Shown piece after piece: positions 21,539 to 45,555 of a stretch of 64,000 nucleotides of DNA. The DNA is from a bacterium (GTDB lineage Bacteria; Auribacterota; Tritonobacteria; UBA1439). A model generated the notes under the pieces. It was not told where the DNA came from and ran no database searches. It saw only the letters and a program-made list of their open reading frames with translations. The stretch lies in the NCBI GenBank assembly GCA_028716845.1, contig JAQUPF010000001.1, positions 311,590 through 375,589 of the forward strand, given 5' to 3'. Every line of letters starts with the position of its first letter. The first letter of the stretch is position 1. The translations under genes and the position numbers were made by a program.

Positions 21539-21566
21539 GCAATCGGGTCGGGGGGGCGCGGGGAGG

Positions 21567-24500
21567 ATGTCCTTCTTCATCATGGTGCTGGTTGCGGCCG
21601 CCGCCTTCGCGGGGACCGCCGCCGCGGCCCCGGCCGACACGATCGTCCTCACATTCGATTTCCTCCCCCCGACGATCGAGGCGGCGGGCGCCTTCTCGCG
21701 CGTGACGATGGGCGACCTGCCGCTCCTCCAGAAGGCGGGCGAGCCGGCGCTGCCGTACCGGCCCGTCCGCGTTCTCATCCCGGACGGCAGGGCGGTCCGT
21801 TCCGTGCGGATCAGGCCGGGGACGCTCATCGGCATCGACGGGCGCCACACGGTCGAGCCTGCGGCCGAGCCCGTCCCGCTGAGTTACAGGGGGCCGCCGA
21901 AGCCGCCGGCGCCGAACAGCGCCGTGTACGCCTCGGGTCGTCCGTATCCCGCCTCCATCGAGACGGGCCGCAGCGCGCAGCGGAAGGGCCCCTATGAGTT
22001 CCTGCTCCTCAATCTCCACCCGGTCGTCTACCTCCCGTCGGAGCGGCGTCTCTCCTACTACGAGCGGCTCACGCTCGAGGTGGCGCTGGAGGACGCGTCG
22101 CCCGGGCGCCGGCCACGGCGGCCCGACACGGAGGAGCGGGATCGGCTGCAGCGGAAGATAGAGAACCCCGAGGCCCTCGAGAGCTACGACGGGGCCGGCA
22201 GCGCGCCGAGGCTCGACGGGGGCGGAGGCCCCCCGGGCGATTTCCCGCACGTCATCATCACGAGCGCCGCGCTCGAGGGCGCCCCCGGCCCCCACAACTT
22301 CCAGGCGCTCCGCGATCACCGGACGGCGCGGGGGATGCCGTCCACGATCGTGACGACGGAATACATCTACGCGAACTTCGACGGGGCGAGGCCCTCGGGG
22401 GGGAGCGACAACCAGACCCGCATCCGCAACTTCATCGCCTGGGCGCACGAGAACTGGGGGACGCGGTACGTCCTCCTCGGCGGCGCCGTCGGGGTCGTTC
22501 CCGCCCGCCTGTTCTACGTGCTGTCGTATCCCGGCGGCTCCACCGCGAACATGCCGGTGGACATGTACTACGGGAACCTCGACGGCACCTTCGACCATGA
22601 CGCGGACGGCGTCTACGGCGAGCCGACCGACGGCCCCGGCGGCGGCGAGGTGGACCTGTACGCGGAGGTGTACATCGGCCGCGCCTGCGTGGAGAACGCG
22701 ACGGAGGTCGCGAACCTCGTCCGGAAGACCATCGCCTACGAGACGTCGACCTCCGATTCCCTCCGGCGGGCCGTGATGGTCGGCGAACACCTCGGCTTCG
22801 GCGGCGTGTCGGAGTACGCGACCGAGTCGATGGAGGAGATCCGGCTCGGCTCCTGCGCGCACGGCTACTGCACGAAGGGGTTCGCCGACGACGAGTTCTT
22901 CCAGACCGAGACGCTCTACGACGCCCCGGGATACTCCTGGCCGAAGAGCGCGCTCGTCTCGATCATGAACGAGGGGGTGCACGTCCTCAACCACCTCGGC
23001 CACGCCAACTACACCTTCGACATGAAGCTGTACACATCGGACCTCCCCTCGCTCGCGAACACCGAGTATTTCTTCATCTACAGCCAGGGGTGCAATCCGG
23101 GCGGCTTCGACACGGCGAACTGCTTCGCGGAGTCCGTCACGACGATGGAGAAGGGGGCGGTCGCCGCCGTGATGAACGCCCGCTACGGGTGGGGGGCGTA
23201 CAACAGCACGGCGGGGCCGTCGCAGTACTACGACCGCGAGTTCTGGGACGCCCTCTTCGGCGAGGGGATACGGGAGCTGGGGCGGATGAACGCCGACTCC
23301 AAGGAGGACAACGACTTCCGGATCAACAACTCGTGCATGCGCTGGTGCCTCTACGAGCTGAACCTGTTCGGCGACCCGGCCGTCCGGATCCAGAACATCT
23401 CGTCCAGGGGGAGGGTGTCGCTCGACGCCGACCGCTACCCCTTGCCGGGCTCCGCGACGGTGACCGTCGTGGACGCCGACCTCGACCTGGACCCGGGCGC
23501 GCCGGACACGGCGACCGCGGAGCTGCGGAGCGCGACGGAGACGGCGGCCGAGATCCTGCTCCTGACGGAGACGGGGCCCTCGACGAAGACGTTCCGCGGC
23601 ACGATCCTCCTCGCCCCGGGGCCGGCGGTCCCGGGCGACGGGATCCTCCAGGCCGCCGACGGCGACGCGCTCACCGCGCGCTACCTCGACGCGGACGACG
23701 GGACGGGGAGCGCCGCGTGGGCCGAGGCCGGGGCGACGGCGGACGCCTCGGGGCCGGCCATCTCGAACATCCAGGCCGCGCCCGCGGCGCTCTCGTGCAC
23801 GCTCACCTTCGGGACGGACGAGCCGGCGACGGCCGTCGTGCGGTACGGGACGGCCGTCCCGCCGGGCGCCGAGGCCCCGTCGGGCACGCTCGCGACCTCC
23901 CACGCCGTCCGGCTCCGGGGCCTCGACCCGGAGACGACCTATTATTTCGAGGTGGTCGCGACCGACGGCGTCGGCAATGCCGGGACCGACGACAACGGCG
24001 GGGCATACCACCAGTTCACGACGCTCGCCGGCGGCGGCATCCTCCTCGTGGACGACGACGAGGGGGATTCGCACGAGACCTATTTCAAGCAGGCCCTGGA
24101 CGCCGCCGGCTACGGCTACGACGCCTGGGACGTGAAGGAGGCGGGGGCGTCTCCCGACGCCGACGACCTCTCGAACTACGGGGTGGTCATCTGGAACTGC
24201 GGCTACAACTACTCCGCCTCGACGGCGGGGCTCACGACGGCCGAGCAGGCGGCACTCGCCTCCTACATGGACGGCGGCGGGCGGGTCTTCCTCTGCGGCC
24301 AGGACATCCTCTACAAAGGGGTGGCCGCCTCCTTCCGGACGAACTACCTGCGCCTCGCCGGCTACTCGAGCGACACGCAGGTGACTCGGGCGATGGGGAT
24401 CGACGGCGACCGGATCTCGGGCGGCATGGACCTCGCCCTCTCCTACCCGTTCACCGACTGGTCGGACACCCTGACGCCCGACTCCTCCTCGTCGCCGGTC

Positions 24501-25331
24501 TTCAGGCGGGGGACGGCGAGCCCCGCCACCTGGTGCGCCGTCCGCCATCCGAAGGACGGCCTGGCCGCGTCGTTCCGGATCGTCTTCTTCGCCTTCCCGT
24601 TCGAGGCGATCCGGCACGATATCGCCGCCCCGAACAACGCCGCGACCGTGATGGACCGCGTCCTCCGGTTCCTCTCGCCCGTCAGGGTCGATGAGGTCTC
24701 CCCGCCGTACGGCCTGAACGACCGGTCGACGGCGGTCGCGATCCGGGGCGCCGGCTTCAGGGCGGATTCGACCGTCACGCTCGGGGGGGCGGCGCTCGGT
24801 GTCGACGCCATGGCCGGCTCCGAGATCGCCGCGACCGTCCCGGCGGGCCTCGCGGCGGGGGCGCACGACCTGGTCGTGCGGAACGCCGATTCGCTGCGGG
24901 GGTCGCTCGACGGCGCGTACACCGCGCTCGCGCCGGGCGGCGACGAGGACGGCGACGGCCTCACGAACGAGGAGGAGATCGTCACGCACGGCACGAACCC
25001 GCTCGACACCGACACCGACGGCGACGGCCTCCCCGATTCCGACGAGATCCTCGTCCACGGCACGGATCCGCTCAATCCCGACACCGACGGCGACGGCCTC
25101 CCCGACGGGGAGGAGATCGCCCGCGGCACGTCCCCGTTCCTCCCCGACACCGACGGCGACGGCGTCCCCGACTTCATCGAGGTCACGCTCGGGAGCGACC
25201 CGCTCGACCCCGCGTCCGTCCCCGGCGCCTACTGCGTGAACTTCCAGCCGCCGCAGGCCGACCCCTATCCCGGCTTTATCCCCGAGGCGGGCGCCCCGTT
25301 CGGCCCCCGCGGCTGCGGTTGGACCGAGTGA
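21567..25331 (+). CDS. Gingipain-type (C25) cysteine peptidase, large secreted multidomain protein
   Basis: 1254 residues from ATG 21567; GGGGAGG abuts this ATG, so ATG 21582 is an alternative. After a signal peptide and a propeptide (GDLPLLQKAGEPALPYRPV) comes the C25 peptidase domain. His in HVLNHLGHANY (about 475-480) and Cys in YSQGCNPGG (about 508) form the expected catalytic dyad. Then follow an FN3-like domain (about 725-820), a ThuA/GATase-like Rossmann segment (ILLVDDDEGD, about 828), an IPT/TIG domain (about 1030-1120) and four type-3 calcium repeats (DTDGDGLPD). The tail VNFQP...RGCGWTE ends the protein. Likely role: a secreted or surface protease. It heads a run of genes sharing the same tail. 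Confidence 0.88.
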   Translation: MSFFIMVLVAAAAFAGTAAAAPADTIVLTFDFLPPTIEAAGAFSRVTMGDLPLLQKAGEPALPYRPVRVLIPDGRAVRSVRIRPGTLIGIDGRHTVEPAAEPVPLSYRGPPKPPAPNSAVYASGRPYPASIETGRSAQRKGPYEFLLLNLHPVVYLPSERRLSYYERLTLEVALEDASPGRRPRRPDTEERDRLQRKIENPEALESYDGAGSAPRLDGGGGPPGDFPHVIITSAALEGAPGPHNFQALRDHRTARGMPSTIVTTEYIYANFDGARPSGGSDNQTRIRNFIAWAHENWGTRYVLLGGAVGVVPARLFYVLSYPGGSTANMPVDMYYGNLDGTFDHDADGVYGEPTDGPGGGEVDLYAEVYIGRACVENATEVANLVRKTIAYETSTSDSLRRAVMVGEHLGFGGVSEYATESMEEIRLGSCAHGYCTKGFADDEFFQTETLYDAPGYSWPKSALVSIMNEGVHVLNHLGHANYTFDMKLYTSDLPSLANTEYFFIYSQGCNPGGFDTANCFAESVTTMEKGAVAAVMNARYGWGAYNSTAGPSQYYDREFWDALFGEGIRELGRMNADSKEDNDFRINNSCMRWCLYELNLFGDPAVRIQNISSRGRVSLDADRYPLPGSATVTVVDADLDLDPGAPDTATAELRSATETAAEILLLTETGPSTKTFRGTILLAPGPAVPGDGILQAADGDALTARYLDADDGTGSAAWAEAGATADASGPAISNIQAAPAALSCTLTFGTDEPATAVVRYGTAVPPGAEAPSGTLATSHAVRLRGLDPETTYYFEVVATDGVGNAGTDDNGGAYHQFTTLAGGGILLVDDDEGDSHETYFKQALDAAGYGYDAWDVKEAGASPDADDLSNYGVVIWNCGYNYSASTAGLTTAEQAALASYMDGGGRVFLCGQDILYKGVAASFRTNYLRLAGYSSDTQVTRAMGIDGDRISGGMDLALSYPFTDWSDTLTPDSSSSPVFRRGTASPATWCAVRHPKDGLAASFRIVFFAFPFEAIRHDIAAPNNAATVMDRVLRFLSPVRVDEVSPPYGLNDRSTAVAIRGAGFRADSTVTLGGAALGVDAMAGSEIAATVPAGLAAGAHDLVVRNADSLRGSLDGAYTALAPGGDEDGDGLTNEEEIVTHGTNPLDTDTDGDGLPDSDEILVHGTDPLNPDTDGDGLPDGEEIARGTSPFLPDTDGDGVPDFIEVTLGSDPLDPASVPGAYCVNFQPPQADPYPGFIPEAGAPFGPRGCGWTE

Positions 25332-25403: not shown

Positions 25404-25439
25404 GATGCTTTTCCCGGCACAGCGGAGGGAACCGGCGTG
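25404..25439 (+). other. Possible 11-codon leader ORF before the MBL-fold gene
   Basis: GGAGGTGCGATG starts an 11-codon frame whose TGA (25437-25439) overlaps the GTG start of the next gene (GTGA). The leader carries the ribosome site of that gene (CGGAGGG) inside it. It may couple translation. There is no evidence of a functional peptide. Confidence 0.3.
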
Positions 25440-26726
25440 AGACCCCTGGCACGGTGCGCGGCGCTCCTGGCCGCCGCGGCGATCCTCGCGGCGACATGGG
25501 CCGCCGCCGGGGAGCTCGAGATCCACGTCATCGACGTCGGCCAGGGGGCGAGCGAGCTCGTCATCGGCCCCAACGGGACGACGATCCTCATCGACGGGGG
25601 GACGAGCACGATGGGCCGAAACAGGGTTCTCCCCTACCTGAACGCGATCTTTCCTCCCGGCGGGCGGCGGCTCGACTACATGATCTGCTCCCACGACCAC
25701 GCCGACCACTACGGCGGGCTCCTCTCCCTCCTCGCGAGCGGCTACTCGGCCGACACCATCTACCACTGCGGGGCAAACGCGAGCTTCGGCCGCGGCGTTC
25801 CCATCGCCGTCGGCACGGTCATCGACCTCGGGGACGGCGCCATCGCCACCTGCGTCGCCGCCAACGGCCTTTTCATCGACGGCACCTACGTGGCGCCGAC
25901 GAGCGACAAGAACACGCGGAGCATCGCCATGCTCCTCCAGTACGGCGGCTTCGACTACCTCACCGCCGGCGACATGCCCGACAGCCGCGAGCGCCGGCTC
26001 GCCGATGCCCTCGTCAAGTATGTCAATCCCCCCTCACACCCCCACCACCCGGACCGGCCGTACCTCGACCCGGAGACGGGGGTGGACGTCCTCCACGTCA
26101 ACCACCACGGCTCGAAGTACAGCTCGTCGGCCTACTACGTCAATGCGATGCGGCCCGAGCTGGCCCTCATCAACGGCGGCGACGGCTACGGCCACCCCAC
26201 CTCGCAGGCGGTCGACCGGCTCCTCGGCAGGCCGTTCTACACGATCGCGTGCTCGTGCAGCTCCGACTGCGGCAGGGCGACCGGCGTCACCGTCCCCGGG
26301 GCCCTCGTCTTCCGGACGACGGCCGCCTCCTACGACTGCCGGCGGGCGATCGAGGCCGACTGCCCGACGATCGGGAACATCGTCGTCATCACCGACGGCA
26401 TGGCCGACTACACCGTCGAGGGGACATCCATGCCGCCCATCCGCCTGGCGCTCGACCAGTTGTCCCCGGACCAGGACACCGACGGCGACGGCCTCACCAA
26501 CGCACAGGAGTTCCTGTACGGCACCGACCCGCTCGACCCGGACACCGACGGCGACGGCGTCTCCGACTACGTCGAGGTCATGTCCGGGAGCGACCCGCTC
26601 GACCCGGCGTCAGTCCCCCACGTCCTCCACTTCACCTTCCAGCCTTGGGGCCTCGCGGCGCCCCCGGCGACCGTCCCCGACTCCGGCCAGTCCTATGCCG
26701 GCACCCGCGGCTTCGGCTGGCAATAG
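25437..26726 (+). CDS. Secreted metallo-beta-lactamase-fold hydrolase with type-3 repeats and FQP-GW tail
   Basis: 429 residues from GTG 25437, with GGAGGG 9 nt upstream. After a signal peptide (about 1-24) the protein matches the soluble ComEC/Rec2-like MBL domain: [19 protein letters not shown], the metal motif [10 protein letters not shown] (about 84-93), a second metal ligand in TAGD and [13 protein letters not shown] near 215-227. No ComEC membrane channel is present. The substrate is unknown; related domains are nucleases or phosphodiesterases. Two type-3 repeats and the tail HFTFQP...RGFGWQ finish the protein. It is probably exported and attached or sorted like its neighbours. Confidence 0.82.
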
Positions 26727-26870: not shown

Positions 26871-26938
26871 CCATAACTTAATTCGCCTGGTTCCGCGTGC
26901 ATGGACGGGAATTATCGGGTATAGTGGACACGGATCAC

Positions 26939-28774
26939 ATGTCCTCCCGCATGCTGTGCCGCATCGCCCCGGCGGTTGTCGCGGGCGTTTTCCTCCTGCA
27001 CGCCGGCGCCGTCCGCGCCGCGCCTCCCGCGTACGCCCCCGACAGGATAATCCTCAAACTCAGGGACGTCCCGCCGGGCCTCGACGCGGCCCTGCGGAGC
27101 GGCGGCGCGGCGCCCCTCCTCGGCATTCCGGCGCTCGACCGGATCGGCGAGCGCCTCGGGGCGAGGGCCGTGCGGCCACTCTTCCGGGCGCCCGCCCCGG
27201 CCGGCAAGGTCGACACGGCCGGCCTCTCGCGCATCCTCATCGTCGACCTCCCGCCGGGGACCGACATCCCGGCGGCGTGCCGCGATTACGCCCGCGACCC
27301 GGCCGTCGAGTACGCGGAGCCGGATTACGTGGCGCACGGCGGGGCACGCATCCCCGACGACCCGTCGTTCCCGCTCCAATGGGGGATGCGCAACACCGGC
27401 CAGACCGGGGGAACGCCCGGCGCCGACATCAGCGCGACGGCCGCGTGGGAATGGCAGACGGGGAGCGCCGACATCATCGTCGCGGTCGTCGATTCCGGCT
27501 CCGACTTCGACCATCCCGACCTCGCCGGGAGATTCCGGGCGAATCCAGGCGAAACCCCCGGGAGCGGGACGGACGACGACGGGAACGGCTTCGTCGACGA
27601 CGTGTACGGCTGGGACTTCGTCAACGACGACAACTGGCCGCAGGACGACCACGGCCACGGGACGCACGTCGCCGGCATCGCCGCGGCCGGGACGGACAAC
27701 GGCACCGGGGTGGCGGGCGTGGCCTGGGGGTGCCCGATCATGACCGTGAAGGTCCTGAACAGCGGCAACTGGGGATACTGGAGCTGGATCGAGAACGGGA
27801 TGCGCTACGCCGTCGACAACGGCGCCCGTGCGATCAACCTGAGCATCGGGGGCTACTCCCCCTCCTCATCCCTCGAGGACACCGTGAACTACGTTCACGC
27901 CAACGGCGGCATCCTGCTCGTCGCCACCCACAATTACGGCGGCGCGATCACGTACCCCGCGAAATACGACAACGTCATCGCCGTCGGCGCCACCGATCAC
28001 GACGACCAGCGCTGGAGCTCCTCGAACTACGGCCCCGAACTGGACGTCGTCGCGCCCGGCGTCTCCATCCACAGCACGCTCTGGAACGACACCTACGCGA
28101 GCTGGAGCGGGACGTCCATGGCCGCCCCCCACGTCACCGGCGTGGCGGCCCTCCTTCTCTCGGTCCGGGCGGACCTGACGTTCGAGCGGGTCAAGCAGCT
28201 GCTCGAGTCCACCGCCGCCGACGAGGTCGGGAGGCCTTCGGAGGATACCCCCGGCTGGGACCAGTACATGGGCTGGGGGAGGATCGACGCCTCCCGGGCG
28301 CTCCAGGCACTCGACGAGGATGCCGACGGCATGCCGGACGCATGGGAGGCATACTACGGCCTCGATCCGTACTCAGACGACACGGCCGGGGACCTGGACG
28401 GGGACGGCCTCACCAATCTCGAGGAGTACCTGCTCGGCACCAACCCGGCGGATCCCGACACCGACGGCGACGGCCTCTCCGATTCCGACGAGATCCTCGT
28501 CCACTTCACGGATCCGCTCGATCCCGACACCGACGGCGACGGCCTCACGGACGGGGAGGAGATCGACCGCGGCACCGATCCGCTCGCCCCCGACACCGAC
28601 GGCGACGGCGTCTCCGACGGCCTCGAGGTCATGTTCGGGAGCGACCCGCTCGACCCGGCCTCGCACCCCTCCGTCATCCGCGTCAGCTTCCAGCCGGAAG
28701 CGGCGCGGGCATCCGGCGACTTCGCCGCCGACGGGGGCCTCACCTTCGACGCGCGCGGCTTCGGCTGGTGGTAG
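26939..28774 (+). CDS. Subtilisin-like (S8) peptidase with type-3 repeats and FQP-GW tail
   Basis: 611 residues from ATG 26939; in-frame GTG 26924 and ATG 26897 are alternatives, and no start has a strong ribosome site. Signal peptide about 1-27; an I9-like pro-region (about 40-120, ending VEYAEPDYVAHG). The catalytic domain has Asp in VVDSGSDFDHPDL (about 184), His in GHGTHVAGIAA (about 240) and Ser in SGTSMAAPHVTG (about 391). Four type-3 calcium repeats (EDADGMPD... DTDGDGVSD) and the tail VSFQP...RGFGWW complete the protein. Expected to be a secreted, calcium-stabilised endopeptidase. It resembles the S8 gene at 55840, which has a different C-terminal module. Confidence 0.9.
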   Translation: MSSRMLCRIAPAVVAGVFLLHAGAVRAAPPAYAPDRIILKLRDVPPGLDAALRSGGAAPLLGIPALDRIGERLGARAVRPLFRAPAPAGKVDTAGLSRILIVDLPPGTDIPAACRDYARDPAVEYAEPDYVAHGGARIPDDPSFPLQWGMRNTGQTGGTPGADISATAAWEWQTGSADIIVAVVDSGSDFDHPDLAGRFRANPGETPGSGTDDDGNGFVDDVYGWDFVNDDNWPQDDHGHGTHVAGIAAAGTDNGTGVAGVAWGCPIMTVKVLNSGNWGYWSWIENGMRYAVDNGARAINLSIGGYSPSSSLEDTVNYVHANGGILLVATHNYGGAITYPAKYDNVIAVGATDHDDQRWSSSNYGPELDVVAPGVSIHSTLWNDTYASWSGTSMAAPHVTGVAALLLSVRADLTFERVKQLLESTAADEVGRPSEDTPGWDQYMGWGRIDASRALQALDEDADGMPDAWEAYYGLDPYSDDTAGDLDGDGLTNLEEYLLGTNPADPDTDGDGLSDSDEILVHFTDPLDPDTDGDGLTDGEEIDRGTDPLAPDTDGDGVSDGLEVMFGSDPLDPASHPSVIRVSFQPEAARASGDFAADGGLTFDARGFGWW

Positions 28775-29338: not shown

Positions 29339-29584
29339 ATGCCGTTCACGGGAAAACAGCGGGACATCCTTAAACTCATGCGCAACACCGTGCGGAGCTA
29401 CCAGACGCTCAGCATCGGAAGCGCTCACGGCCTCCAGCGCCTGGCGAAGGATTACTTCGACATCGAGATCGACATCCAGCCGACGATCGAGGCGGTCCGG
29501 AGCCGGCGGGGCGACCTGATCTACGCCGAGCTCGCCCGGCTCCAGGGGATCATCGGCGAGATCGAGAAGCGGGGCGCGCGATGA
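29339..29584 (+). CDS. Small alpha-helical protein of unknown function, coupled to glycosyltransferase
   Basis: 81 residues, MPFTGKQRDILKLMRNT..., predicted mostly helical, with no signal peptide, membrane segment or metal motif. I do not recognise the family. It is preceded by a good promoter (29256-29285), and its stop overlaps the start of the glycosyltransferase by 4 nt (ATGA). It is therefore probably real and co-translated. Its ribosome site is weak (GGGTGG). It could modulate the transferase, but the sequence does not show how. Confidence 0.6.
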   Translation: MPFTGKQRDILKLMRNTVRSYQTLSIGSAHGLQRLAKDYFDIEIDIQPTIEAVRSRRGDLIYAELARLQGIIGEIEKRGAR

Positions 29585-30342
29585 CGGCCGCGCGGAAGGC
29601 GCTCATCGTCATCGGGACGTATAACGAGCGGGAGAACATCCGCGAGCTCGTGGAGCGCGTCCTCGGCCTGGCGCTGGGGTTCCACATCCTCATCATCGAC
29701 GACAACTCGCCGGACGGCACCGGCCGGATCGCCGACGAGCTCGCCGACGCGCATCCCGAGGTCGGCGTCATCCACCGCCCCTCGAAGATGGGCCTCGGCA
29801 CCGCGTACCTGGCGGGATTCCGTCACGGCATCGAGCGCGGCTACGACCTCCTCCTCACCATGGACGCCGACTTCTCGCACGACCCCGCCGTCCTCCCGCG
29901 CCTCCTCGAGGCGGCGGAGACGCACGATCTCGTCATCGGCTCCCGCTACGTCCGCGGCGGCGGCGTGGTCAACTGGCCCTGGCACCGGAAGCTCGTGAGC
30001 CGCGGGGGGAGCATCTACGCCCGGCTCGTCACCGGCCTCCCCGTCGCCGACGCGACGGGGGGATTCAACTGCTACCGGAGCGAGGTCCTCCGGGCGATCG
30101 GCCTGGACGGCATCAGGTCCGAGGGGTACGCCTTCCACATCGAGATGAAGCACAAGGCCCGGCGGAAGGGGTTCCGCATTTGCGAGATCCCGATCACGTT
30201 CGTGGACCGGACGCTCGGGAAATCCAAGATGTCGAAACGGATCTTCCTCGAGGCGATCGGTCGCTGCTGGAAGATCCGCTTCAGCGGCCGGGACCGTTCA
30301 CCGTCCCCCCCCGCGCGTACAGGGCGAGGGCGAGCTTCCTGA
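29581..30342 (+). CDS. Polyprenol-phosphate mannosyltransferase-like GT2 (dolichol-P-mannose synthase family)
   Basis: 253 residues, GT2 fold. IGTYNERENI (about 11-20), IIDDNSPDGT (about 38-47), the metal-binding DADFSHDP (about 98-105) and the late SEGYAFHIEMKHKA segment match DPM1-type polyprenol monophosphomannose synthases. There is no C-terminal membrane domain. It would transfer a sugar from a GDP- or UDP-sugar to polyprenyl phosphate at the inner membrane. The product could feed the GT39-like transferase encoded on the opposite strand. The last 62 nt overlap the 3' end of that convergent gene. Confidence 0.87.
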   Translation: MTAARKALIVIGTYNERENIRELVERVLGLALGFHILIIDDNSPDGTGRIADELADAHPEVGVIHRPSKMGLGTAYLAGFRHGIERGYDLLLTMDADFSHDPAVLPRLLEAAETHDLVIGSRYVRGGGVVNWPWHRKLVSRGGSIYARLVTGLPVADATGGFNCYRSEVLRAIGLDGIRSEGYAFHIEMKHKARRKGFRICEIPITFVDRTLGKSKMSKRIFLEAIGRCWKIRFSGRDRSPSPPARTGRGRAS

Positions 30343-31843
30343 AGCGGCGCGCCTCCCGCTCCGGGAAATGCCCCTCCAGGAACGCCTCGATCTCCCGGTC
30401 GCCGTGGCCGCGGGTGTCATCCCCGACGAGGAGCCAGACCCGCTCCCGCCCCGCCGTGTAGCGGCGGAGCGTCTCCGCGAGGTCGTACCGGTCGCACTCC
30501 GCGATGCCGACCTGGCGCAGCCCCCCCCGGTAGTAGATGTTGAGCGGGATCATGTGGCCCGCGATGTTGACGAGGACGAGGTCGCCCCGCCGCTCGCCCG
30601 CGGCGATGACGGCCGCGGCGGCGCGGAAATCCGGCTTCGAGTGGTCGTTGTCGAAGACGCCGGGATAGAAGGGGAACGGGGCGGCGGCGAGGGAGACGGC
30701 GCAGACGGCCGCCGCGAGGAGCGCCCGCGCCCACGCCCCGCGGAGCGCCCAGACGGCTCCCGCCGCGAGGAGCAGGACGCCCGACGCCTCCCACATGTGG
30801 TACCGGGGCTTCATGTACCAGAGCGTCCACCTGAGGGCGCCGAAGGCGGCGATCACGCCGAGCGGGACGAGGAGGAGGAGGAGCGCGAAGGCGACCGCGC
30901 GCCCCTTTCCCCGCCGGACGAGGCGGACGGAGCCCGCCGCGAGGAGGGCGGCGAGACCCCCCCCGACCGCGCGCCGGACGCCGTCGCCGACGATCTCCCT
31001 GCTGTACATGGGGCCGAGGACGAGCGAGTCCGCGATGTACCGCAGGCCGGCGAGCGTCGCCCGGATGAACGCCCCCGCCTCCGCGGGGCCCGGCGGCGCG
31101 TACCCGCTCGAGACGGCGAGCTGTTTCCCGAAGGCGAGGGCGAGCCAGGGGAGGCAGAGCCCCGCCGCCGCGGCCATGCTCAGCGCGAACGGCCGGAGGC
31201 GCGCGCGCGCGAAGACGAGGACGTAGAGGGCGTGTGCGGCGAGGACGAGAGCGGCGAAGTAGAAGCTGTAGCAAACGAGGAGCGCCGCGGCCGCGTAGGC
31301 CGCCCACGGTCCCGCCCCCCGCTCCGCGTCGAGGGCCCGGAGGAGCAGCCAGGAGGCGGCGACGGCCGCGCAGTTCGCCATCATGTAGGCGCGCGCCTCC
31401 TGCGAGAAGTAGATGTTGAGCGGGGAGACGGCGAGGAAGAGCGCCGCGAGGAGGGCGGGCACGGGGTCCCCGAACAGGCGGCGGCCGAGGAGGTAGAAGA
31501 GCGGCACGGCGAGGACACCGAGGACGGCGGAGAGCGAGCGGACGGCGAGGTCGCTCCCCCCGAACGCCTTCATCCATGCCGCGAGGGCGAGGAAGTAGGC
31601 GGGGGGCGTCCCCTCGTTCCGGACGCAGGCGCGCACGATGGCGCGGAGCGAGGGGCGGGGGTTCACGAACCGCCGGTGCGTCGCGTCCACGAGCGAGGCG
31701 GTCATGAAGTGCATGTCCACGCCCCGGGCATCGTAGACGGAGAACGCCTCGTCGCCCCAGAGGCCCTGGTGCGTGATGCCGGAGAAGCGCAGGCCGGCGG
31801 CGAGGGCGGTGACGAGGATGAGCGCGATCCGTTCCCGGTACAT
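30281..31843 (-). CDS. GT39/PMT-like membrane glycosyltransferase
   Basis: 520 residues with about 11-12 hydrophobic segments. The first periplasmic loop has the family motif GLWGDEAFS (about 27-35), with the acidic residue used in catalysis. FSQEARAYM (about 155-163) is the second conserved loop. These match the GT-C fold ArnT/PMT-like enzymes that use a polyprenyl-phosphate sugar as donor on the outer face of the inner membrane. The convergent, overlapping polyprenol-P-mannose synthase is the natural donor-making partner. The acceptor (lipid A, glycan or protein) cannot be told. An upstream promoter is predicted at 31870-31899. Confidence 0.8.
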   Translation of the reverse strand: MYRERIALILVTALAAGLRFSGITHQGLWGDEAFSVYDARGVDMHFMTASLVDATHRRFVNPRPSLRAIVRACVRNEGTPPAYFLALAAWMKAFGGSDLAVRSLSAVLGVLAVPLFYLLGRRLFGDPVPALLAALFLAVSPLNIYFSQEARAYMMANCAAVAASWLLLRALDAERGAGPWAAYAAAALLVCYSFYFAALVLAAHALYVLVFARARLRPFALSMAAAAGLCLPWLALAFGKQLAVSSGYAPPGPAEAGAFIRATLAGLRYIADSLVLGPMYSREIVGDGVRRAVGGGLAALLAAGSVRLVRRGKGRAVAFALLLLLVPLGVIAAFGALRWTLWYMKPRYHMWEASGVLLLAAGAVWALRGAWARALLAAAVCAVSLAAAPFPFYPGVFDNDHSKPDFRAAAAVIAAGERRGDLVLVNIAGHMIPLNIYYRGGLRQVGIAECDRYDLAETLRRYTAGRERVWLLVGDDTRGHGDREIEAFLEGHFPEREARRFRKLALALYARGGTVNGPGR

Positions 31844-32236: not shown

Positions 32237-33580
32237 ATGTACATGCGCGCACTTGCTTCCGCTCTTCTCGCCGCGGCGATCGCCGCGGGCCCGGCACGGG
32301 GGGCCGTTTCCCTGGGGGTCTTTCTCGACGGCGCCCCCGACGCTCAGATAACGGGCCTCTTCGGCGCCACCCGCCCGCACGCCATCGTGCAGTACGCGCT
32401 GGTGTGGGCGTACTCGAACGCCGGCTCGCACACCGAGCTGATGAACAGGGTCCGCGGCAGGAACGCCACGCCGATGTGCGTCTGGGGCTCCGGCTGGGAG
32501 CGCAACCTGAACGACATCGCGAACGGCGCGCACGATGCGTACATCACGGGCATCGCGAACGCGGTGCGCGACTTCGGTCACCCGGTCATCCTCGCCTTCA
32601 ACGCGGAGTTCAACCTCACGACGAACCCCTACAACGCGAGCCATTACGGGAATGATGCCGGCGCTTACATCGCGGCGTGGAGGCATGTGGTCGACCGCTT
32701 CAGGGCAGCGGGCGCGACGAACGCGCAGTGGGCCTGGTGCCCGAACTACGCGTCGAATCCCCCCGCGTCCTGGAATCAGCCGGAGAACTACTATCCCGGC
32801 GACGAGTACGTGGACTGGCTCGGGACGCTCGGGTTCGACTGCAACTGGGCCGGCGGCGGCGGCACCGCGAACCTTTCATTCAACGATCTCTTCGGCCCCA
32901 TTCTCTCCTCCATGGCATCCCTCAAGCCCGATAAGCCGCAGATCGTGATGTGGTTCGCCACGGCGGGGAGCGCCGCGCAGAAGCCGGCGTGGATCCAGTC
33001 GAGCTACGGCTCGATGGCGAACTACCCGAACCTCCGGGCGGTGGTCTGGTACAACAAGAGGGACGATGCCCCCGCGAACGCCGATTACCGCGTCTGGGAC
33101 ACCGCCGGCGTGCAGGCGTCGGTGACGAACGCCTACAGGAACGCGATATCGGCCCCGCTCTTCCTCACCACCCTCCCCCCCTACGACGAGCTCGTCCCGA
33201 ACGGCAATGGGAACGGGGGCGGCGGCACGCTCGCCATCACGCCGTCGCCCGTGACGGTCTGGAGGGGCGACACGCTCAGCATCGGCTGGGCGTTCCAGGG
33301 GATCACGCAGCGCGTGGACGCCTACCTGCGCGTGACGACGCCCGAGGATGACCTCTACTACATGGACGCGAGGCAGCAATTCAACCTCCGCGTCGCGCCC
33401 GTCGCCTCCAACTACAACGTGAGCGGCAACCCCTCCGGCACGCTCCGGTTCACGGTCCCGCGGAACATCTCCGCCGGCGATTACACCTTCGAGGCGATGT
33501 GCGTCCCCGCGGGGCGCTCCGTCGCGGATCCGGCGAACTGGATCGGCGGGGCGGACGAGGATGTCGTCCAGGTCCGATAG
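32237..33580 (+). CDS. GH26-like secreted protein, copy 1 (nucleophile position changed)
   Basis: 447 residues from ATG 32237, 5 nt after AGGAGG. Signal peptide about 1-21. The domain resembles the GH26 (beta-mannanase) TIM barrel. VILAFNAEFN (about 115-124) aligns with the acid/base block IRWAHEPN of copy 2, keeping the Glu but losing the preceding His. WAWCPN and YYPGDEYVDWLG follow. At the nucleophile block, where copy 2 has GKPQGIFEFGS, this copy has DKPQIVMWFATAGS, so the Glu position is Trp in my alignment. A linker and a beta-rich C-terminal domain (about 330-447) end the protein. Possibly a carbohydrate-binding, non-hydrolytic member. Confidence 0.72.
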   Translation: MYMRALASALLAAAIAAGPARGAVSLGVFLDGAPDAQITGLFGATRPHAIVQYALVWAYSNAGSHTELMNRVRGRNATPMCVWGSGWERNLNDIANGAHDAYITGIANAVRDFGHPVILAFNAEFNLTTNPYNASHYGNDAGAYIAAWRHVVDRFRAAGATNAQWAWCPNYASNPPASWNQPENYYPGDEYVDWLGTLGFDCNWAGGGGTANLSFNDLFGPILSSMASLKPDKPQIVMWFATAGSAAQKPAWIQSSYGSMANYPNLRAVVWYNKRDDAPANADYRVWDTAGVQASVTNAYRNAISAPLFLTTLPPYDELVPNGNGNGGGGTLAITPSPVTVWRGDTLSIGWAFQGITQRVDAYLRVTTPEDDLYYMDARQQFNLRVAPVASNYNVSGNPSGTLRFTVPRNISAGDYTFEAMCVPAGRSVADPANWIGGADEDVVQVR

Positions 33581-33614
33581 CCCTCCGGCCGGTCTTCAGC
33601 CGCGCGCGGCGCCG

Positions 33615-35237
33615 ATGATGATTTATTCAGGTATCTTCCGCGGGACCGCCGCGCTGCTCTCCCTCGCCGCCGCGCTCCTTTCTCCGTCCCTCTCCGCCGC
33701 CCCCGAGCGGCCGGGGATCATGCTCGGCGCCTTCATCCCCGCCACGTGGGAATACGACGAGGACATCGAGGCGTTCGACGAGGCGGCAGGAAGATCCCAC
33801 ACCCACATCATGATCTTCTGCCATTTCAAGTACGATTTCTGGGAGGGGCCGTTCCTCCTCGAGAAGGTGGGCGAGAAGGAAAAGAGCCCCGTCATCTGCT
33901 GGCAGTCGGGTGACATCGAGGGGAGGCCGCACCCCGACTACTCCAACGCGAGTTTCATTAGGGGTGAACACGATGCGGTCATAAAGGACATGGCCCAGCA
34001 GGTGAAGCGGTTCATAGACCGGTTCGGCCTTCCGGTCTACATCCGCTGGGCGCACGAGCCGAACATCAAGAGCTCCCCCGCCTGGCCCGGCCACAAATGG
34101 AACAACCGGAGCGTGGAGGAGTACATCCAGATGTTCCGCCATGTCCACACGGTCTTTCACAAGGAACTGGACGAGGCGACGCGGGAGAAGGTTGTCTGGA
34201 CCTGGTCAGTGAACTACTTCGGCTCGAGGGAGGGCCTCGACACCTACAGCGACTGGAAGCGCCTCTACCCGGGCGACGACTTCGTGGACATGACCGGCCT
34301 GAGCGGCCTGAACTACGGCGACCACCCCACCGCGGGCCCCCGATTCCCCGTCACCGTCCAGTGGCTCTACCTCCCGATCCTCCGCGACATGATGGCCGGC
34401 GAGTACGGGGGCGGCGTCCCGCTCCGCGACATGGCGCGACTGACCGGCGGCAAGCCGCAGGGCATCTTCGAGTTCGGCAGCGTGGACAACGGGCCCTCGT
34501 ACGCGGGAGAGCTCGCGCGGTCGATGCCGGAGTACTTCTCGGCGATCCCGAAGGCGGACTGGATACGGCAGGGGTACGACGCCCTCGCGAATACGGAGGA
34601 GTTCGCCTTCGTCCGCCTCGTCCTCTGGTACAACGACATCGCGACGAGCGACGACGTGCTCTCCGACTACCGCGTCTCCCGGAACCCGAACAGAAAGGGT
34701 GAGGGCGAGGTGCCGGAACACGTCACGCGCGCCTACCGGGAGGCGATCCGCGATCCGGTCTTCCTCGACGCCCCCCTGACACTCGAGGAGATGACGCCCG
34801 GCGGATTCCACCGCGCGCGATCCATGCCGGTGCCGAGGACCTATCCGCAGCACGAGTTCTGGCCGAGCGTCCGCGACGGCGGGACGCTCCGCCGCGGCGA
34901 GACGCTCTCGGCCGCCTACTTCCTCCATCCGCCCTCGGCGGGGGGACGGTCCCGCTGCGACGCCTACGTCGCCGCCCGGCTGCCGGCGGGCGACCTGTTC
35001 GCCTTCGTCCCCCCCTCCAGATGGATCCCGTTCACGCTCAGCGGCGGTTCCGTCCCCGCCGCCCGGAAGGGCCTGGACGTCACCGGGGAGTCACGCGGGA
35101 TGGCCTTCGTGATGCGGCCCGGCGAGGGCCTCCCGTCCGGCTCGTACACCATCTACTCGATCCTCGTCCCGCCCGGCGCGGATCCGAGGGGCGGCGGGCC
35201 CGACCTGCGCGAATCCCGCTTCTCCCTCGCCGACTGA
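33615..35237 (+). CDS. GH26-like secreted glycoside hydrolase, copy 2 (both catalytic Glu present)
   Basis: 540 residues from ATG 33615 (MMIYSGIF...); 34 bp separate it from copy 1. Signal peptide about 1-29. The barrel begins PGIMLGAFIPATWEYDEDIEAFDE. The acid/base Glu lies in YIRWAHEPNIKSSPAWPGHKWN (about 138-158), WTWSVNYF and LYPGDDFVDMTGLSG follow, and the nucleophile Glu is in GKPQGIFEFGS (about 279-289). It is therefore the one copy of the three that looks fully catalytic. GH26 enzymes cleave beta-mannans or mixed beta-glucans. A C-terminal beta domain (about 410-540) with SGSYTIYSILVPPG is shared with copy 3. The ribosome site is poor. Confidence 0.8.
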   Translation: MMIYSGIFRGTAALLSLAAALLSPSLSAAPERPGIMLGAFIPATWEYDEDIEAFDEAAGRSHTHIMIFCHFKYDFWEGPFLLEKVGEKEKSPVICWQSGDIEGRPHPDYSNASFIRGEHDAVIKDMAQQVKRFIDRFGLPVYIRWAHEPNIKSSPAWPGHKWNNRSVEEYIQMFRHVHTVFHKELDEATREKVVWTWSVNYFGSREGLDTYSDWKRLYPGDDFVDMTGLSGLNYGDHPTAGPRFPVTVQWLYLPILRDMMAGEYGGGVPLRDMARLTGGKPQGIFEFGSVDNGPSYAGELARSMPEYFSAIPKADWIRQGYDALANTEEFAFVRLVLWYNDIATSDDVLSDYRVSRNPNRKGEGEVPEHVTRAYREAIRDPVFLDAPLTLEEMTPGGFHRARSMPVPRTYPQHEFWPSVRDGGTLRRGETLSAAYFLHPPSAGGRSRCDAYVAARLPAGDLFAFVPPSRWIPFTLSGGSVPAARKGLDVTGESRGMAFVMRPGEGLPSGSYTIYSILVPPGADPRGGGPDLRESRFSLAD

Positions 35238-35293
35238 TCCCCTCACCCGCGCTGCTGGCGCCGCCGCACAGGCGGTGCTATATTACGTTTGGA

Positions 35294-36889
35294 ATGAACG
35301 CGATGAGACCGATCCGCACGCTCCTCATGCCGGCGATTCTCCTCGCCGCGGGCGGCCCGGTCCGGGCGGAGGCGCCCGCCGGCCATCCCGGCATCATGCT
35401 CGGCGCATTCATACCGGCGGTGAACGGAGACGGAAAATACCGGGAATCGATCAAGGCGTTCGACGACGCCACGGGGAAACGGCACACGCACGTCATGATG
35501 TACTGCAACTTCACGTTCGACATCGACGCGTATCCGCATCTCGTCCGGCAGATTGTCGACGCCGGGAAGGTGCCGATCATCACCTGGCAGTCGGGGAACG
35601 AGATGGGGGGGGCCGATCCCCGTTATTCCAACGAGAGCTTCGTCAGGGGGGCGCACGACGCCGTCATCGATAAAATGGCGGAGCGGTGCGCGGAATTGCG
35701 TGAAACAATCTACATGCGCTGGGCGCACGAGATGAACATCAGGAGCGCCCCGGCGTGGCCGGGGCACGAATGGAACAGGGAGAGCCCCGACGATTTCATA
35801 CAGATGTGGCGGCACGTGCACGCGCGGTTCCGTAATAAGAAGGCGACGAACGTGAAATGGATCTGGTCGGTCAACTACGAGAGCTCGCCGGAATGGTTCA
35901 GCGACTACAACGTCCTCTACCCCGGCGACGATTACGTGGACATGATCGGCGTGAGCGGCCTGAACTACGGGAACCACCCCAACGCCGGGCCCCGCTTTCC
36001 CGTCACCGTCCAGTGGCTCTACCTGCCCCCGATGCGCGACCTCATGGCCGGGAGCTACGCCGCAGAGGACGCCGCGCGGACGCACCGCCGCCTCGCCGCG
36101 CTGGGCGGCGGCAAGCCGCAGGGATCGTTCAGCATCGGCACCGTCGGCGCGCCGTGGGAGACGACGGTGCCGGGCGGCTCGACCTCCTCCATCCCGAAGG
36201 CGGACTGGATCCTGCAGGGCTACGACGCCCTCGCCCACATGGAGGAATTCGGTTTCGTCAGGCTCCTCGTCTGGTACAACGACATCGCGACGAGCGGCGG
36301 GATCCCCTCCGATTTCCGCGCGGCCCGAAACCCCGGCAGGAGCGAGCCCCCCGTGCCCCCGCACATCACGGAGGCGTACGCCCGGGCGATCAGCGATCCG
36401 GTCTTCATCGAGGAGGAGCTCTCGTTCGAGGATATGGACCCGGGGCCGTTCCGCGAGGCGTCCTCGCTCGTCACGCCGGCCGACTACCCGCAGCACGAGT
36501 TCATGCTCGACGTGCGCCGCGGGGGAACGGTGCGGGCGGGAGGGAGCGTCTCGGGCGCCTATTTCCTCGTTCCGGCGATCGACACGGGCCCGCTCAACTG
36601 GGACACGGACGCCTACATCGTCGCGCGGTTGCCGAACGGCGAGTATTACGCCTTCATCCCGCCCGCGGCGTGGCGGCGCTTCGACCCGAACCTCGGCCCG
36701 CCGCCACCGACGGTGCGCCGGTTCAGCGTGAAGCGGCCCTCCCGCGGCATGGCCTTCGCCCAGCGGCTCGGCGCGGGGCTGCCCGGGGGCGAGTACACGG
36801 TCTATTCGGTCCTCGTGAAGCCCGGGACGGACCCGAGGGAGCCGGGGCAGCCCGATCTCAGGACGACCGCCTTCACCCTTTCGGATTGA
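35294..36889 (+). CDS. GH26-like secreted protein, copy 3 (nucleophile Glu replaced by Ser)
   Basis: 531 residues from ATG 35294 (or ATG 35303), with TATATT 10-15 bp upstream. Signal peptide about 1-25. It is the closest paralogue of copy 2. The acid/base block is intact (YMRWAHEMNIRSAPAWPGHEWN, about 140-160), as are LYPGDDYVDMIGVSGLNYG and GPRFPVTVQWLYLP. The nucleophile block reads GKPQGSFSIGT, with Ser where copy 2 has Glu. Retaining hydrolysis by the GH26 mechanism would not be expected. The C-terminal domain ends GEYTVYSVLVKPGTDP. It may bind glycans or act as a decoy or scaffold, and the small lipoprotein gene follows 7 bp later. Confidence 0.75.
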   Translation: MNAMRPIRTLLMPAILLAAGGPVRAEAPAGHPGIMLGAFIPAVNGDGKYRESIKAFDDATGKRHTHVMMYCNFTFDIDAYPHLVRQIVDAGKVPIITWQSGNEMGGADPRYSNESFVRGAHDAVIDKMAERCAELRETIYMRWAHEMNIRSAPAWPGHEWNRESPDDFIQMWRHVHARFRNKKATNVKWIWSVNYESSPEWFSDYNVLYPGDDYVDMIGVSGLNYGNHPNAGPRFPVTVQWLYLPPMRDLMAGSYAAEDAARTHRRLAALGGGKPQGSFSIGTVGAPWETTVPGGSTSSIPKADWILQGYDALAHMEEFGFVRLLVWYNDIATSGGIPSDFRAARNPGRSEPPVPPHITEAYARAISDPVFIEEELSFEDMDPGPFREASSLVTPADYPQHEFMLDVRRGGTVRAGGSVSGAYFLVPAIDTGPLNWDTDAYIVARLPNGEYYAFIPPAAWRRFDPNLGPPPPTVRRFSVKRPSRGMAFAQRLGAGLPGGEYTVYSVLVKPGTDPREPGQPDLRTTAFTLSD

Positions 36890-36896
36890 GCGGACG

Positions 36897-37133
36897 ATGA
36901 GAGCGATCGCCGTTTTCCTCGCGGCGTGCCTGCTGGCCGTCGCCGTCGCCTCGTGCGTCCAGGTTACGACCGCCCGGCGGGCGGAGACGGTCGCCCGCAC
37001 CGAGGAGGGGGAGGAGGCGCGCCGCTCCGAGGTCGTCGTGCGGACCTGGGGCTGGGACCTCCTCGGAGGCCTCCTCAAGGCGCTCTTCTTCCCGTTCAAG
37101 GTCCTCGGGAAGGCGGTGGACGCGATCACCTGA
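36897..37133 (+). CDS. Small lipoprotein of unknown function
   Basis: 78 residues. The signal sequence ends in a lipobox (AVASC, Cys20), so the mature protein should be a lipid-anchored peptide of about 59 residues. It has a charged middle (TARRAETVARTEEGEEARR) and an amphipathic or hydrophobic C-terminal helix (WDLLGGLLKALFFPFKVLGKAVDAI). No family is recognised. It starts 7 bp after GH26-like copy 3 and is probably co-transcribed with it. Confidence 0.7.
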   Translation: MRAIAVFLAACLLAVAVASCVQVTTARRAETVARTEEGEEARRSEVVVRTWGWDLLGGLLKALFFPFKVLGKAVDAIT

Positions 37134-37149: not shown

Positions 37150-38232
37150 ATGACGCCGATCGGGACACGCATGGAAATGCAGTCGGCGCTGGTCGCGCTG
37201 CTGCTCCCCTGCGCCGCCCTGGCGGCTGATCCGTGGCCGGGGGGCCCGGGGACCGACATCGGCGGCAACCTCCCCTCCCCGTGCGAGCCGAGCGGCGTCG
37301 TCTGGCACACGCGCCTCGAGCGGCTGTTCGTCGCGAGCGACGACGGCCGGGTCATCCGGATGGACGCCGACGGGAACGGCGTGACATCCCGGTCGCCCGG
37401 GGGCGACATCGAGGGGATCGCGGTCGCCGACGCGGACACCGATTACATCTACCTCGGCATCGAGCACCCCGACTCGATCAGGGAGTTCGACGTGGCGGAG
37501 GGGGCGCTGACGGGGAAGTCGTGGGACCTCACCCCCTGGATGCAGAGCGCGAGCAGCAACCTCGGCCTCGAGGCGCTCACCTTCATCCCGAACGGCCACC
37601 ACCCATATGCCGACGGCGGCTCGGGCGGCCTTTTCTACGCGGGCCTCCAGGAGGACGGGAGGATCTACGTCTTCGACGTGGACCTCTCGACCGGCGGCGC
37701 CGTGTCGCACGTCGACGTGATCACGCCCGTCGCGGGCAGGGCCGACCTCTCCGGCCTCCACTACGCGACGGAGACCCGGACGCTCTACGCGGTGTTCGAC
37801 GGTTCAAGCCGGATCCGCGAGATGACCGCGGGCGGGTCGTTCATCGCCGAGTATGAGCTGCCGGGGAGCGGCCAGGAGGGGGTGACGGTGGTCCCGTCAT
37901 GCCCCTCCGGATCGGCGGCGGTCTCCATCGCCGAGGACTCCGGCGGTGTCGTCCGGTACGACGGCTACCCGGTCGCGTGCGCCGACGTCGACGCCGACGG
38001 CCTGTCCGACGTCGAGGAGGCCCTCCTCGGGACGGATCCCGACTCGCCGGACACCGACGGCGACGGCTTCAGCGATTCGATCGAGCATTTCTGCGGGAGC
38101 GACCCGCTCCTCGAGACGAGCGTTCCCGACCCGCTCGCCGTCAACTTCCAGCCCGGCGCCGCCCGCATCCCCGCCCGCCACTGCCCCGACGCGGGCGCCG
38201 CCTTCTCCCCGCGCGGCCACGGCTGGCTGTAG
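37150..38232 (+). CDS. SdiA-regulated/phytase-like beta-propeller with type-3 repeats and FQP-GW tail
   Basis: 360 residues from ATG 37150; ATG 37171 is a plausible alternative giving a cleaner signal peptide (ALVALLLPCAALAA). The propeller part (about 30-275) shows the pattern of the SdiA-regulated (YjiK) family: PSGVVWHTRLERLFVASDDG, DIEGIAVADADTDYIYLGIE, LGLEALTFIPNG, DLSGLHYATETRTLYAVFD and QEGVTVV. Two type-3 calcium repeats (DVDADGLSD, DTDGDGFSD) and the tail VNFQP...RGHGWL follow. Such propellers bind or hydrolyse small ligands; no catalytic set is evident. Its C-terminus is built like those of the C25, MBL and S8 proteins 10-15 kb upstream. Confidence 0.75.
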   Translation: MTPIGTRMEMQSALVALLLPCAALAADPWPGGPGTDIGGNLPSPCEPSGVVWHTRLERLFVASDDGRVIRMDADGNGVTSRSPGGDIEGIAVADADTDYIYLGIEHPDSIREFDVAEGALTGKSWDLTPWMQSASSNLGLEALTFIPNGHHPYADGGSGGLFYAGLQEDGRIYVFDVDLSTGGAVSHVDVITPVAGRADLSGLHYATETRTLYAVFDGSSRIREMTAGGSFIAEYELPGSGQEGVTVVPSCPSGSAAVSIAEDSGGVVRYDGYPVACADVDADGLSDVEEALLGTDPDSPDTDGDGFSDSIEHFCGSDPLLETSVPDPLAVNFQPGAARIPARHCPDAGAAFSPRGHGWL

Positions 38233-38247: not shown

Positions 38248-38360
38248 GATGAACCCCGAGCCACGGATTGAAACGGATCAGTACGGATACTCACGGATCC
38301 GACCTCAAGCATATCAGTGGGAATCCGTAATCATCCGTGAAAATCCGCGGTGGATTGTTT
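38248..38360 (+). repeat. CGGAT-phased intergenic repeat (family X, copy 3)
   Basis: CGGAT at 38264, 38274, 38284 and 38294, then AATCCGTAATCATCCGTG and AATCCGCGGTGGATTG. TATAAT at 38423-38428 just beyond may be the -10 of the following ATP-grasp gene; no clear -35 was found. Confidence 0.85.
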
Positions 38361-38465
38361 CTTCAGTCGGCGGATGAGGCGCGCGTCTTCACTTCGCGCT
38401 GGCGCGCGGCGCGTCGCGCGTTTATAATCGTTACCGGCCGTGCCACGGATGCGAGGCGGACGCGC

Positions 38466-39485
38466 GTGAAGAAGCTCAGGATCACGATCCTCTACGATCG
38501 CTCCCCCGACCAGTCGGACGAGAAGGAGCACGAGCTCGCGATGGCGGGGACGGGCGAGGACGCGCACCACCACCTCGTCGAGCACCTCTCGAAGGCCGGC
38601 CACGACGTCGCCCTCCACGGCGTCCACGACGACGTGAAGGCCCTCATCGCGGCGATCGAGTCCCGGCAGCCGGAGATCGTCTTCAACCTCTGCGAATCGT
38701 TCCGCGGGGACTCGGCGATGGAGTTCCACATCCCCGCGCTCCTCGAGATGCTCGGCGCGCGGTACACCGGCTCCGGTCCCGGGGCGATCATGCTCGCCCT
38801 CGACAAGGGCCTCGCGAAGAAGGTCCTCGCCTACCACGGCCTCTGGTCCGCCGATTTCACGGTGTACCCGCGGGGCCAGTTCGACATCCGCCCGTCGAAG
38901 CTCCGCTTCCCGCTCATCGTCAAGCCCCTCACCGAGGACGCCTCCATCGGCATCGCCGAGAGCTCCGTCGTGCGGAACGACGACGCCCTCGCCGCCCGCA
39001 TCTCGTACGTGCACGAGAAGATCGGCTGCGCCGCCCTCGTCGAGGAATACATCGAGGGGCGGGAGCTCTTCGTGGGCGTCATCGGCAACGACCGGCCGAC
39101 GATCCTCCCCCCGATGGAGCTCGACTTCAGCAAGGCGCCGGACGACAAGCTCAAGGTCTACAGCTTCAAGGCGAAGTTCGACTCCTCCTACAGGGACAAG
39201 TGGGGGATCCAGTCCGTCTTCCCGGAGGACCTGAAGAAGGAGACGCTCGACCGGATCGGGGAGATCACGCGCACCGCCTACACGGCGCTCGGCCTCAGGG
39301 ACTACGGCCGTGTCGACCTCATGCTCGCACCGGACGGCGCCGTCTACGTCCTCGAGGTGAACCCCAACCCGAACATCGCCGAGAACGAGGACCTCCCGAA
39401 CGCCGCCGCCCAGACCGGACTCGGCTACGCGGAGTTCGCCGAGAAGATCATCAAGATCGCCCTCGACCGGTACCGGAACGGCTGA
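38466..39485 (+). CDS. D-alanine-D-alanine ligase-like ATP-grasp protein, paralogue 1
   Basis: 339 residues from GTG 38466 (KKLRITILYDRSP...), with GAGG about 10 nt upstream. Ddl-type features: IVFNLCESFRGDSAMEFHIPALLEMLGARYTGSGP (about 76-110), the ATP-grasp lysine in PLIVKPLTEDASIGI, EEYIEGRELFVGVIG, and the metal ligands in RVDLMLAPDG...VLEVNPNPNI. It lacks the HGxxGEDG loop of true Ddl, so it probably joins other amino acids or peptides. It stands alone between repeat blocks. A related gene in the lysine-aminomutase cluster lies 6 kb downstream. The pairing of these two ligases is discussed under findings. Confidence 0.8.
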   Translation: MKKLRITILYDRSPDQSDEKEHELAMAGTGEDAHHHLVEHLSKAGHDVALHGVHDDVKALIAAIESRQPEIVFNLCESFRGDSAMEFHIPALLEMLGARYTGSGPGAIMLALDKGLAKKVLAYHGLWSADFTVYPRGQFDIRPSKLRFPLIVKPLTEDASIGIAESSVVRNDDALAARISYVHEKIGCAALVEEYIEGRELFVGVIGNDRPTILPPMELDFSKAPDDKLKVYSFKAKFDSSYRDKWGIQSVFPEDLKKETLDRIGEITRTAYTALGLRDYGRVDLMLAPDGAVYVLEVNPNPNIAENEDLPNAAAQTGLGYAEFAEKIIKIALDRYRNG

Positions 39486-44505: not shown

Positions 44506-45555
44506 ATGCGCGTCGCCGTCGTGTACAACTGCAGGCCGAGCACCCCCGCCGCCCCCGGCGACGACCGCTACGCCGAGTGGGACGAACGGGGGACGATCGA
44601 CGCCGTCTCCTCGGCGCTCGCCCGCGCGCACGAGGTGGTCGAAATCGAGGCCGACGCCGACATCGTCGAGAGCCTGAAGCGTGAACGCCCCGACATCGTC
44701 TTCAACATCGCCGAGGGGATCAACTCCCAGAACCGGGAGTCGCAGGTGCCGATCATCTGCGAGATGCTCGGCATCCCGTACACCGGCTCCGACGGCTTCA
44801 CCCTCGCGGCCTGCCTCAACAAGGCGCGCGCGAAGGAGATCCTCTCCTACCACGGCGTGCCGACTCCGGCGTTCCGCGTCGTGACCGATTCGAACGGGCC
44901 GCTCGCGCCGCTCGCGCCGCCCCTCATCGTCAAGCCGCTCTGGGAGGGGTCGAGCATGGGCGTCGGAGACGACTCGGTCGCGCGGCGGCCGCGCGACGTG
45001 CCGGCGAAGGTCCGGCGGGTGCGCGCCCGCTACCGCCAGCCCGCCCTCGTCGAGGAGTACCTCGAGGGTCGGGAGTTCACCGCGGCGCTCATCGGCAACG
45101 GCCCCGGCCTCCGTGTCCTCCCCCTCGTCGAGATCGACTTCGGCACGCTCCCCGCGGGCGCGAACCGCATCTACTCCTTCGAGGCGAAATGGGTCTGGGA
45201 CAGGCCGGAGGCGCCCCTCAGGATCTTCACCTGCCCGGCGCCGGTCGATCCGGCCCTCCGGCGGGAGATCGAGGAGGTGTGCCGGCGCGCGTTCACGGTC
45301 CTCGGCTGCCGCGACTGGTGCCGCATCGACGTGCGGCTCGACGGGGAGGGGCGGCCGCACGTCATCGAGCTGAACCCCCTCCCCGGCATCCTCCCGGACC
45401 CGGACCAGAACTCCTGCTTCCCGAAGGCCGCGCGGGCCGCGGGGATGGGCTACGCGGAGCTCGTGCGGGAGGTGCTCCGGATCGCCTGTGATCGGAACGG
45501 GATCGCGGAGGGCCGCCTCAAGGAGGCCGCCCTCGGGACGGGAGGCGGGAAATGA
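44506..45555 (+). CDS. D-alanine-D-alanine ligase-like ATP-grasp protein, paralogue 2
   Basis: 349 residues. DIVFNIAEGINSQNRESQVPIICEMLGIPYTGSD (about 64-98) is the Ddl-like N-domain block. PPLIVKPLWEGSSMGVGDDS and VEEYLEGREFTAALIG form the ATP-grasp core, and CRIDVRLDGEGRPHVIELNPLPGI holds the Mg2+ ligands. As in paralogue 1 (38466), the loop of genuine Ddl is replaced (EGINSQNRES), so it probably makes an amide bond between other amino acids. Its stop overlaps the GNAT start by 4 nt, and the lysine 2,3-aminomutase follows, so its substrate may include beta-lysine. Confidence 0.83.
   Translation: MRVAVVYNCRPSTPAAPGDDRYAEWDERGTIDAVSSALARAHEVVEIEADADIVESLKRERPDIVFNIAEGINSQNRESQVPIICEMLGIPYTGSDGFTLAACLNKARAKEILSYHGVPTPAFRVVTDSNGPLAPLAPPLIVKPLWEGSSMGVGDDSVARRPRDVPAKVRRVRARYRQPALVEEYLEGREFTAALIGNGPGLRVLPLVEIDFGTLPAGANRIYSFEAKWVWDRPEAPLRIFTCPAPVDPALRREIEEVCRRAFTVLGCRDWCRIDVRLDGEGRPHVIELNPLPGILPDPDQNSCFPKAARAAGMGYAELVREVLRIACDRNGIAEGRLKEAALGTGGGK

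Follow-up and report, generated by a model that had tools for sequence, protein, structure and literature searches.

The locus raises the question of what three neighbouring GH26-like secreted proteins of an uncultured bacterium may do when only the middle one keeps the catalytic nucleophile. In the window, by which we mean the whole stretch of 64,000 nucleotides that was analysed, they are encoded on the forward strand as c1 (32237..33580), c2 (33561..35237) and c3 (35294..36889). Judging from the sequence, the ATG near 33615 is a more likely start of c2 than position 33561. All three genes have intact long frames with signal peptides and C-terminal modules.

Family, fold and catalytic positions

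The earlier note described three tandem GH26-like proteins, and this assignment was confirmed at the level of both family and fold. All three proteins pass the curated cut-off of the Pfam GH26 family PF02156 (E 3e-4 for c1, 3e-6 for c2 and 3e-8 for c3); NCBIfam gave no family name for c1-c3. The best PDB match by sequence was in each case CtLic26A, with 21-29% identity. The structures of c1 and c3 were predicted with AlphaFold2 from small input alignments, which gave models of moderate confidence (pLDDT 62 for c1 and 73 for c3). Both models were nearest to CtLic26A, with a TM of 0.84 for c1 and 0.87 for c3 (normalised by target). In both, the acid/base Glu is located directly past strand 4 and the substituted residue inside strand 7, which are the usual positions in clan GH-A. 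The c2 and c3 proteins are 52-53% identical to each other; c1 shares 24-30% identity with them, and its homology extends over its full length (hhalign E 1e-42).

The motifs quoted earlier (PGDxxVD, KPQ, AHExN and GPRFPVTVQWLYLP) were all found as given. The first of them reads PGDEYVD in c1, PGDDFVD in c2 and PGDDYVD in c3, and KPQ is present in every copy. The c2 and c3 proteins carry AHEPN/AHEMN and GPRFPVTVQWLYLP. The c1 equivalent of AHExN is NAEFN, which bears out the absence of the His before the acid/base residue. The blocks around the nucleophile, KPQIVMWFATAG in c1, KPQGIFEFGS in c2 and KPQGSFSIGT in c3, align without gaps. At the nucleophile position, the alignment places Trp in c1 (W239, codon TGG, 32951..32953), Glu in c2 (E304, codon GAG, 34470..34472) and Ser in c3 (S280, codon AGC, 36131..36133), and in the PDB alignment W239 coincides with the nucleophile position of CtLic26A. 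The acid/base Glu is present in all three (c1 E124, 32606..32608; c2 E166, 34056..34058; c3 E146, 35729..35731). The proposal that c2 alone has a Glu nucleophile thus held at the residue level, and no other acid aligns with this site in c1 or c3. The two substitutions are not single-base sequencing slips, since both codons are at least two bases away from GAG/GAA and orthologues carry the same residues.

Apart from the nucleophile, c1 has lost the Arg four residues before the acid/base, the His, the Trp, and the strand-6 Asp and Tyr. Throughout the c1 clade, in all three genera, Arg is replaced by Ala, Asp by Leu, Tyr by Phe and Glu by Trp, and the His is lost. The loss of the His alone is a weak criterion, because it is absent in 10 of the 21 reference homologues, 9 of which have a Glu nucleophile. 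The c2 protein retains the Arg, the His, the acid/base and the nucleophile, as do all its orthologues across genera. The position of the GH26 Tyr is taken by Phe in c1 and by Leu in c2 (L250, 34308..34310), in c3 and in every other member of the c2/c3 clade. In YpenMan26A this Tyr was described as hydrogen-bonded to the nucleophile (PMC6381184), so that c2, with Leu in its place, is not a textbook enzyme. According to the alignment, every c2/c3 member also has Ser at the Trp position, five residues past the acid/base; this assignment is less certain, as an adjacent Trp in c2 and c3 could fit after a one-residue shift. Among the residues that define a GH26 retaining hydrolase, the acid/base Glu is therefore found in all three proteins, the nucleophile Glu in c2 only, and the Tyr in none. 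The earlier idea of an active middle enzyme is weakened by these data: the Arg, the His and both Glu stand in its favour, but the Tyr and, by alignment, the Trp are absent.

Relatives and the stability of the substitutions

Relatives of the three proteins were collected from whole genomes, and those in G002, G003, G004 and G005 come from the same bacterial family as the host of c1-c3; none were found in viral contigs. G003 has one c1-like (G003_a) and one c2-like gene (G003_b), and G004 has one c1-like gene. G005 contains a c1 fragment, a truncated c2-like gene (G005_c), a fourth copy interrupted by an in-frame TAG and, on a separate contig, the sole c3 orthologue (G005_d). The fourth copy (L029, 1432-3081), with residues read on both sides of the TAG, is a GH26-type paralogue with a Glu nucleophile and represents either a pseudogene or an assembly error. 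The single copy in G002 is more distant from c1-c3.

A tree computed without the nucleophile column supported the c1 clade at 100/99 and the c2/c3 clade at 100/100; the pairing of c3 with G005_d was weakly supported (78/56). All three full c1 sequences have Trp at the nucleophile position and both c3 sequences (c3, G005_d) have Ser. Glu is found in all c2 sequences, including G003_b and G005_c, in the fourth G005 copy and in the G002 copy. Across 30 homologues the Glu nucleophile is present throughout, save in the c1 clade, in c3 with G005_d, and in the unrelated L076, and three changes, one of them in L076, explain the losses. The GH26 homologue L076 (from G302) is distant; it has Ser in place of the nucleophile and Leu in place of the Tyr, and may be an independent pseudoenzyme.

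Beyond the earlier observation, these results show that the nucleophile losses in c1 and c3 are lineage-stable, with the same substitution in other genera. As the losses are fixed across related genera, c1 and c3 look like stable 'dead-enzyme' relatives and not like decaying genes. The pN/pS values of c1 pairs (0.57-0.69) and of c3 (0.63) were close to those of c2 pairs (0.52-0.60). We relied solely on this similarity, because a high G+C content compresses synonymous change. Conservation of the cleft in c1 or c3 orthologues was not significantly higher than in the rest of the barrel (Fisher p 0.26-0.43), and for this reason the retention of a binding site in c1 and c3 is something that we only infer.

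Two acids outside the nucleophile position were also followed. D201 of c1 (32837..32839) closes strand 6 and is specific to the c1 clade among the copies, with Asp in c1, G003_a and G004; an acid is found there in 2 of the 21 references. E289 of c3 (36158..36160) is located in the loop following strand 7, which has low confidence in the model, and its equivalent is Glu in c3 and G005_d only.

The G002 copy has both the Glu and the Tyr in place, and its locus shares the lipoprotein, ATP-grasp, TPR and radical-SAM genes. This suggests that a single copy is the ancestral state, and c1-c3 were probably formed by duplication and remodelling at the same locus.

Secreted modules and neighbouring genes

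Each of the three proteins ends in a module common to other secreted hydrolases (33212..33577 in c1, 34821..35234 in c2 and 36470..36886 in c3). It comprises about 115 amino acids, has no Pfam match and occurs on many kinds of secreted hydrolases in the host family (L099-L108); MBL-fold proteins, a subtilase, a GDSL lipase and a GHL15 protein carry it at the extreme C-terminus. Among the genomes searched, its pairing with a GH26-type barrel was found only in the host family. The distribution is consistent with a role in sorting or anchoring. A search for SprA, as a marker of type IX secretion, matched neither the genomes nor any control and was hence uninformative about the sorter of the module.

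Another C-terminal tail, of about 35 amino acids and reading roughly xIRVNFQP..P.G...D.G..Y..RGYGW(0-3)-stop, was observed on unrelated secreted proteins. Within the window it is carried by 25437-26726, 26897-28774, 37150-38232 and the end of 21510-25331, and the carriers are of MBL-fold, subtilase, phytase-like and peptidase C25 types. We counted 45 matches in 6 of 59 genomes, with 8 in the source genome and 23 in G006. At 26 of 30 inspected loci the protein stops no more than 3 residues past GW, and at the other 4 it continues into a longer domain. The tails that were scanned fell within no Pfam or NCBIfam family, and the sequence pattern may represent an undescribed C-terminal sorting tag.

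Upstream of c1 lie a GT2 gene related to polyprenyl-phosphate sugar synthases (29581..30342, forward strand) and a PMT_2-type glycosyltransferase gene (30281..31843, reverse strand). Orthologues of the former adjoin c1 in G003, G004 and G005. Close orthologues of the latter were restricted to G003 and G004; there is none in G001 and G002, both without c1, and the incomplete G005 assembly gave a distant match. The small lipoprotein placed at the end of the set by the earlier note is a real gene (36897..37133, forward strand), but its conserved partner is the downstream gene for a D-Ala-D-Ala ligase-like ATP-grasp protein (38337..39485, forward strand), a marker of the conserved locus, which it directly precedes in G002, G003 and G005. 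The lipoprotein thus probably does not belong with the GH26 proteins. A second D-Ala-D-Ala ligase-like ATP-grasp protein is encoded at 44506-45555; the first falls below the NCBIfam cut-offs.

The Pfam scan, which covered window ORFs between 4971 and 55777, revealed no transporter, SusC/D-like or other GH gene, so the uptake or SusC/D-like genes that accompany a polysaccharide utilisation locus are absent among the scanned ORFs. With no such genes among the scanned ORFs, the suggested capture-and-cleave system is unsupported in the sense of nutrient acquisition. The GT2 and PMT-type neighbours, together with the absence of uptake genes from the scanned ORFs, make a cell-surface or self-made glycan a more likely target than a nutrient; this neighbour argument is drawn from six genomes, some of them fragmentary.

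Probable roles and comparison with known systems

The explanation that we prefer, with a probability of about 0.6, is that c1 and c3 are secreted glycan-binding pseudoenzymes and that c2 may be a hydrolase, with a surface glycan as their target. An ancestral active GH26 enzyme resembling the G002 copy would have been duplicated. One product, c1, would have become a non-catalytic protein with a glycan-binding or structural function, and c3, no longer able to form the covalent intermediate, a lectin-like partner. The c2 protein would have been remodelled and would hydrolyse the same glycan, possibly slowly; this glycan would be located on the cell surface or be made by the cell itself.

A rather unlikely alternative is that none of the three is catalytic: replacement of the catalytic-subsite Tyr and Trp would have abolished activity in the c2/c3 clade, and the two Glu of c2 would be a relic or serve in sugar binding. 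The Leu and Ser in every c2/c3 member favour it, and L076 is the only reference that combines Leu with a lost nucleophile; however, each c2 orthologue across genera has kept the Arg and the His together with the Glu pair, and G031_1 pairs Leu at the Tyr position with a Glu nucleophile. It is distinctly improbable that c1 or c3 is catalytic by another route, c3 by means of E289 or by a transfer reaction that needs no covalent intermediate and c1 by means of D201. Both have an acid/base Glu, and the two acids are confined to c3 with G005_d and to the three c1 sequences, but these are samples of 2 and 3, neither acid aligns with the nucleophile, the E289 loop is poorly modelled, and c1 also lacks the Arg, His, Asp and Tyr. 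We give very little credence to a related idea, in which c3 or c1 catalyses another kind of reaction, such as the transfer of sugars in surface-glycan assembly with the neighbouring GT2 enzyme; if true, it would provide a natural counterpart of engineered glycosynthases. Decay of c1 and c3 as functionless duplicates is hardly credible: the c3 branches are slightly longer than those of c2 and the fourth G005 copy has an in-frame stop, but frames, signal peptides and C-terminal modules are all intact, the substitutions are identical in other genera, and pN/pS is close to that of c2.

If c1 and c3 are pseudoenzymes, as we prefer, their conservation beside a possibly active paralogue makes it possible to examine directly how a fold that cuts carbohydrates is put to another use. 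For stepwise experiments, a natural series is offered by the lineages with E-to-W and E-to-S changes, by the sister genome with its single copy of the intact type and by the locus that they share. An open-access full-text search, which was not exhaustive, gave no paper that mentions GH26 as well as pseudoenzymes.

Among known enzymes, the position of the acid/base Glu in c1-c3 is the same as in CtLic26A, the GH26 lichenase of Clostridium thermocellum (PDB 2bv9, 2cip, 2vi0). In contrast to it, c1 and c3 lack the nucleophile, the Tyr is replaced in all three proteins, the C-terminal module is added, and c2 and c3 have an insertion ahead of strand 7. The GH26 endomannanases (YpenMan26A, BoMan26A/B, CjMan26A) have the same barrel and acid/base Glu, and share the His and nucleophile with c2, but their -1/+1 subsite Tyr and Trp are not conserved in c1-c3, and the structural similarity is lower than that to CtLic26A. 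GH26 glycosynthase mutants are engineered and use activated donors. Like these nucleophile-less variants (PDB 1odz, CjMan26A), c3 combines the acid/base with a small residue at the nucleophile position. The heparanases offer an analogy of an active glycosidase beside an inactive paralogue, although they belong to another family, GH79, and to animals. Heparanase 1 is the active glycosidase of this pair, and its inactive paralogue, heparanase 2, appears to counteract it (PMC12406646).
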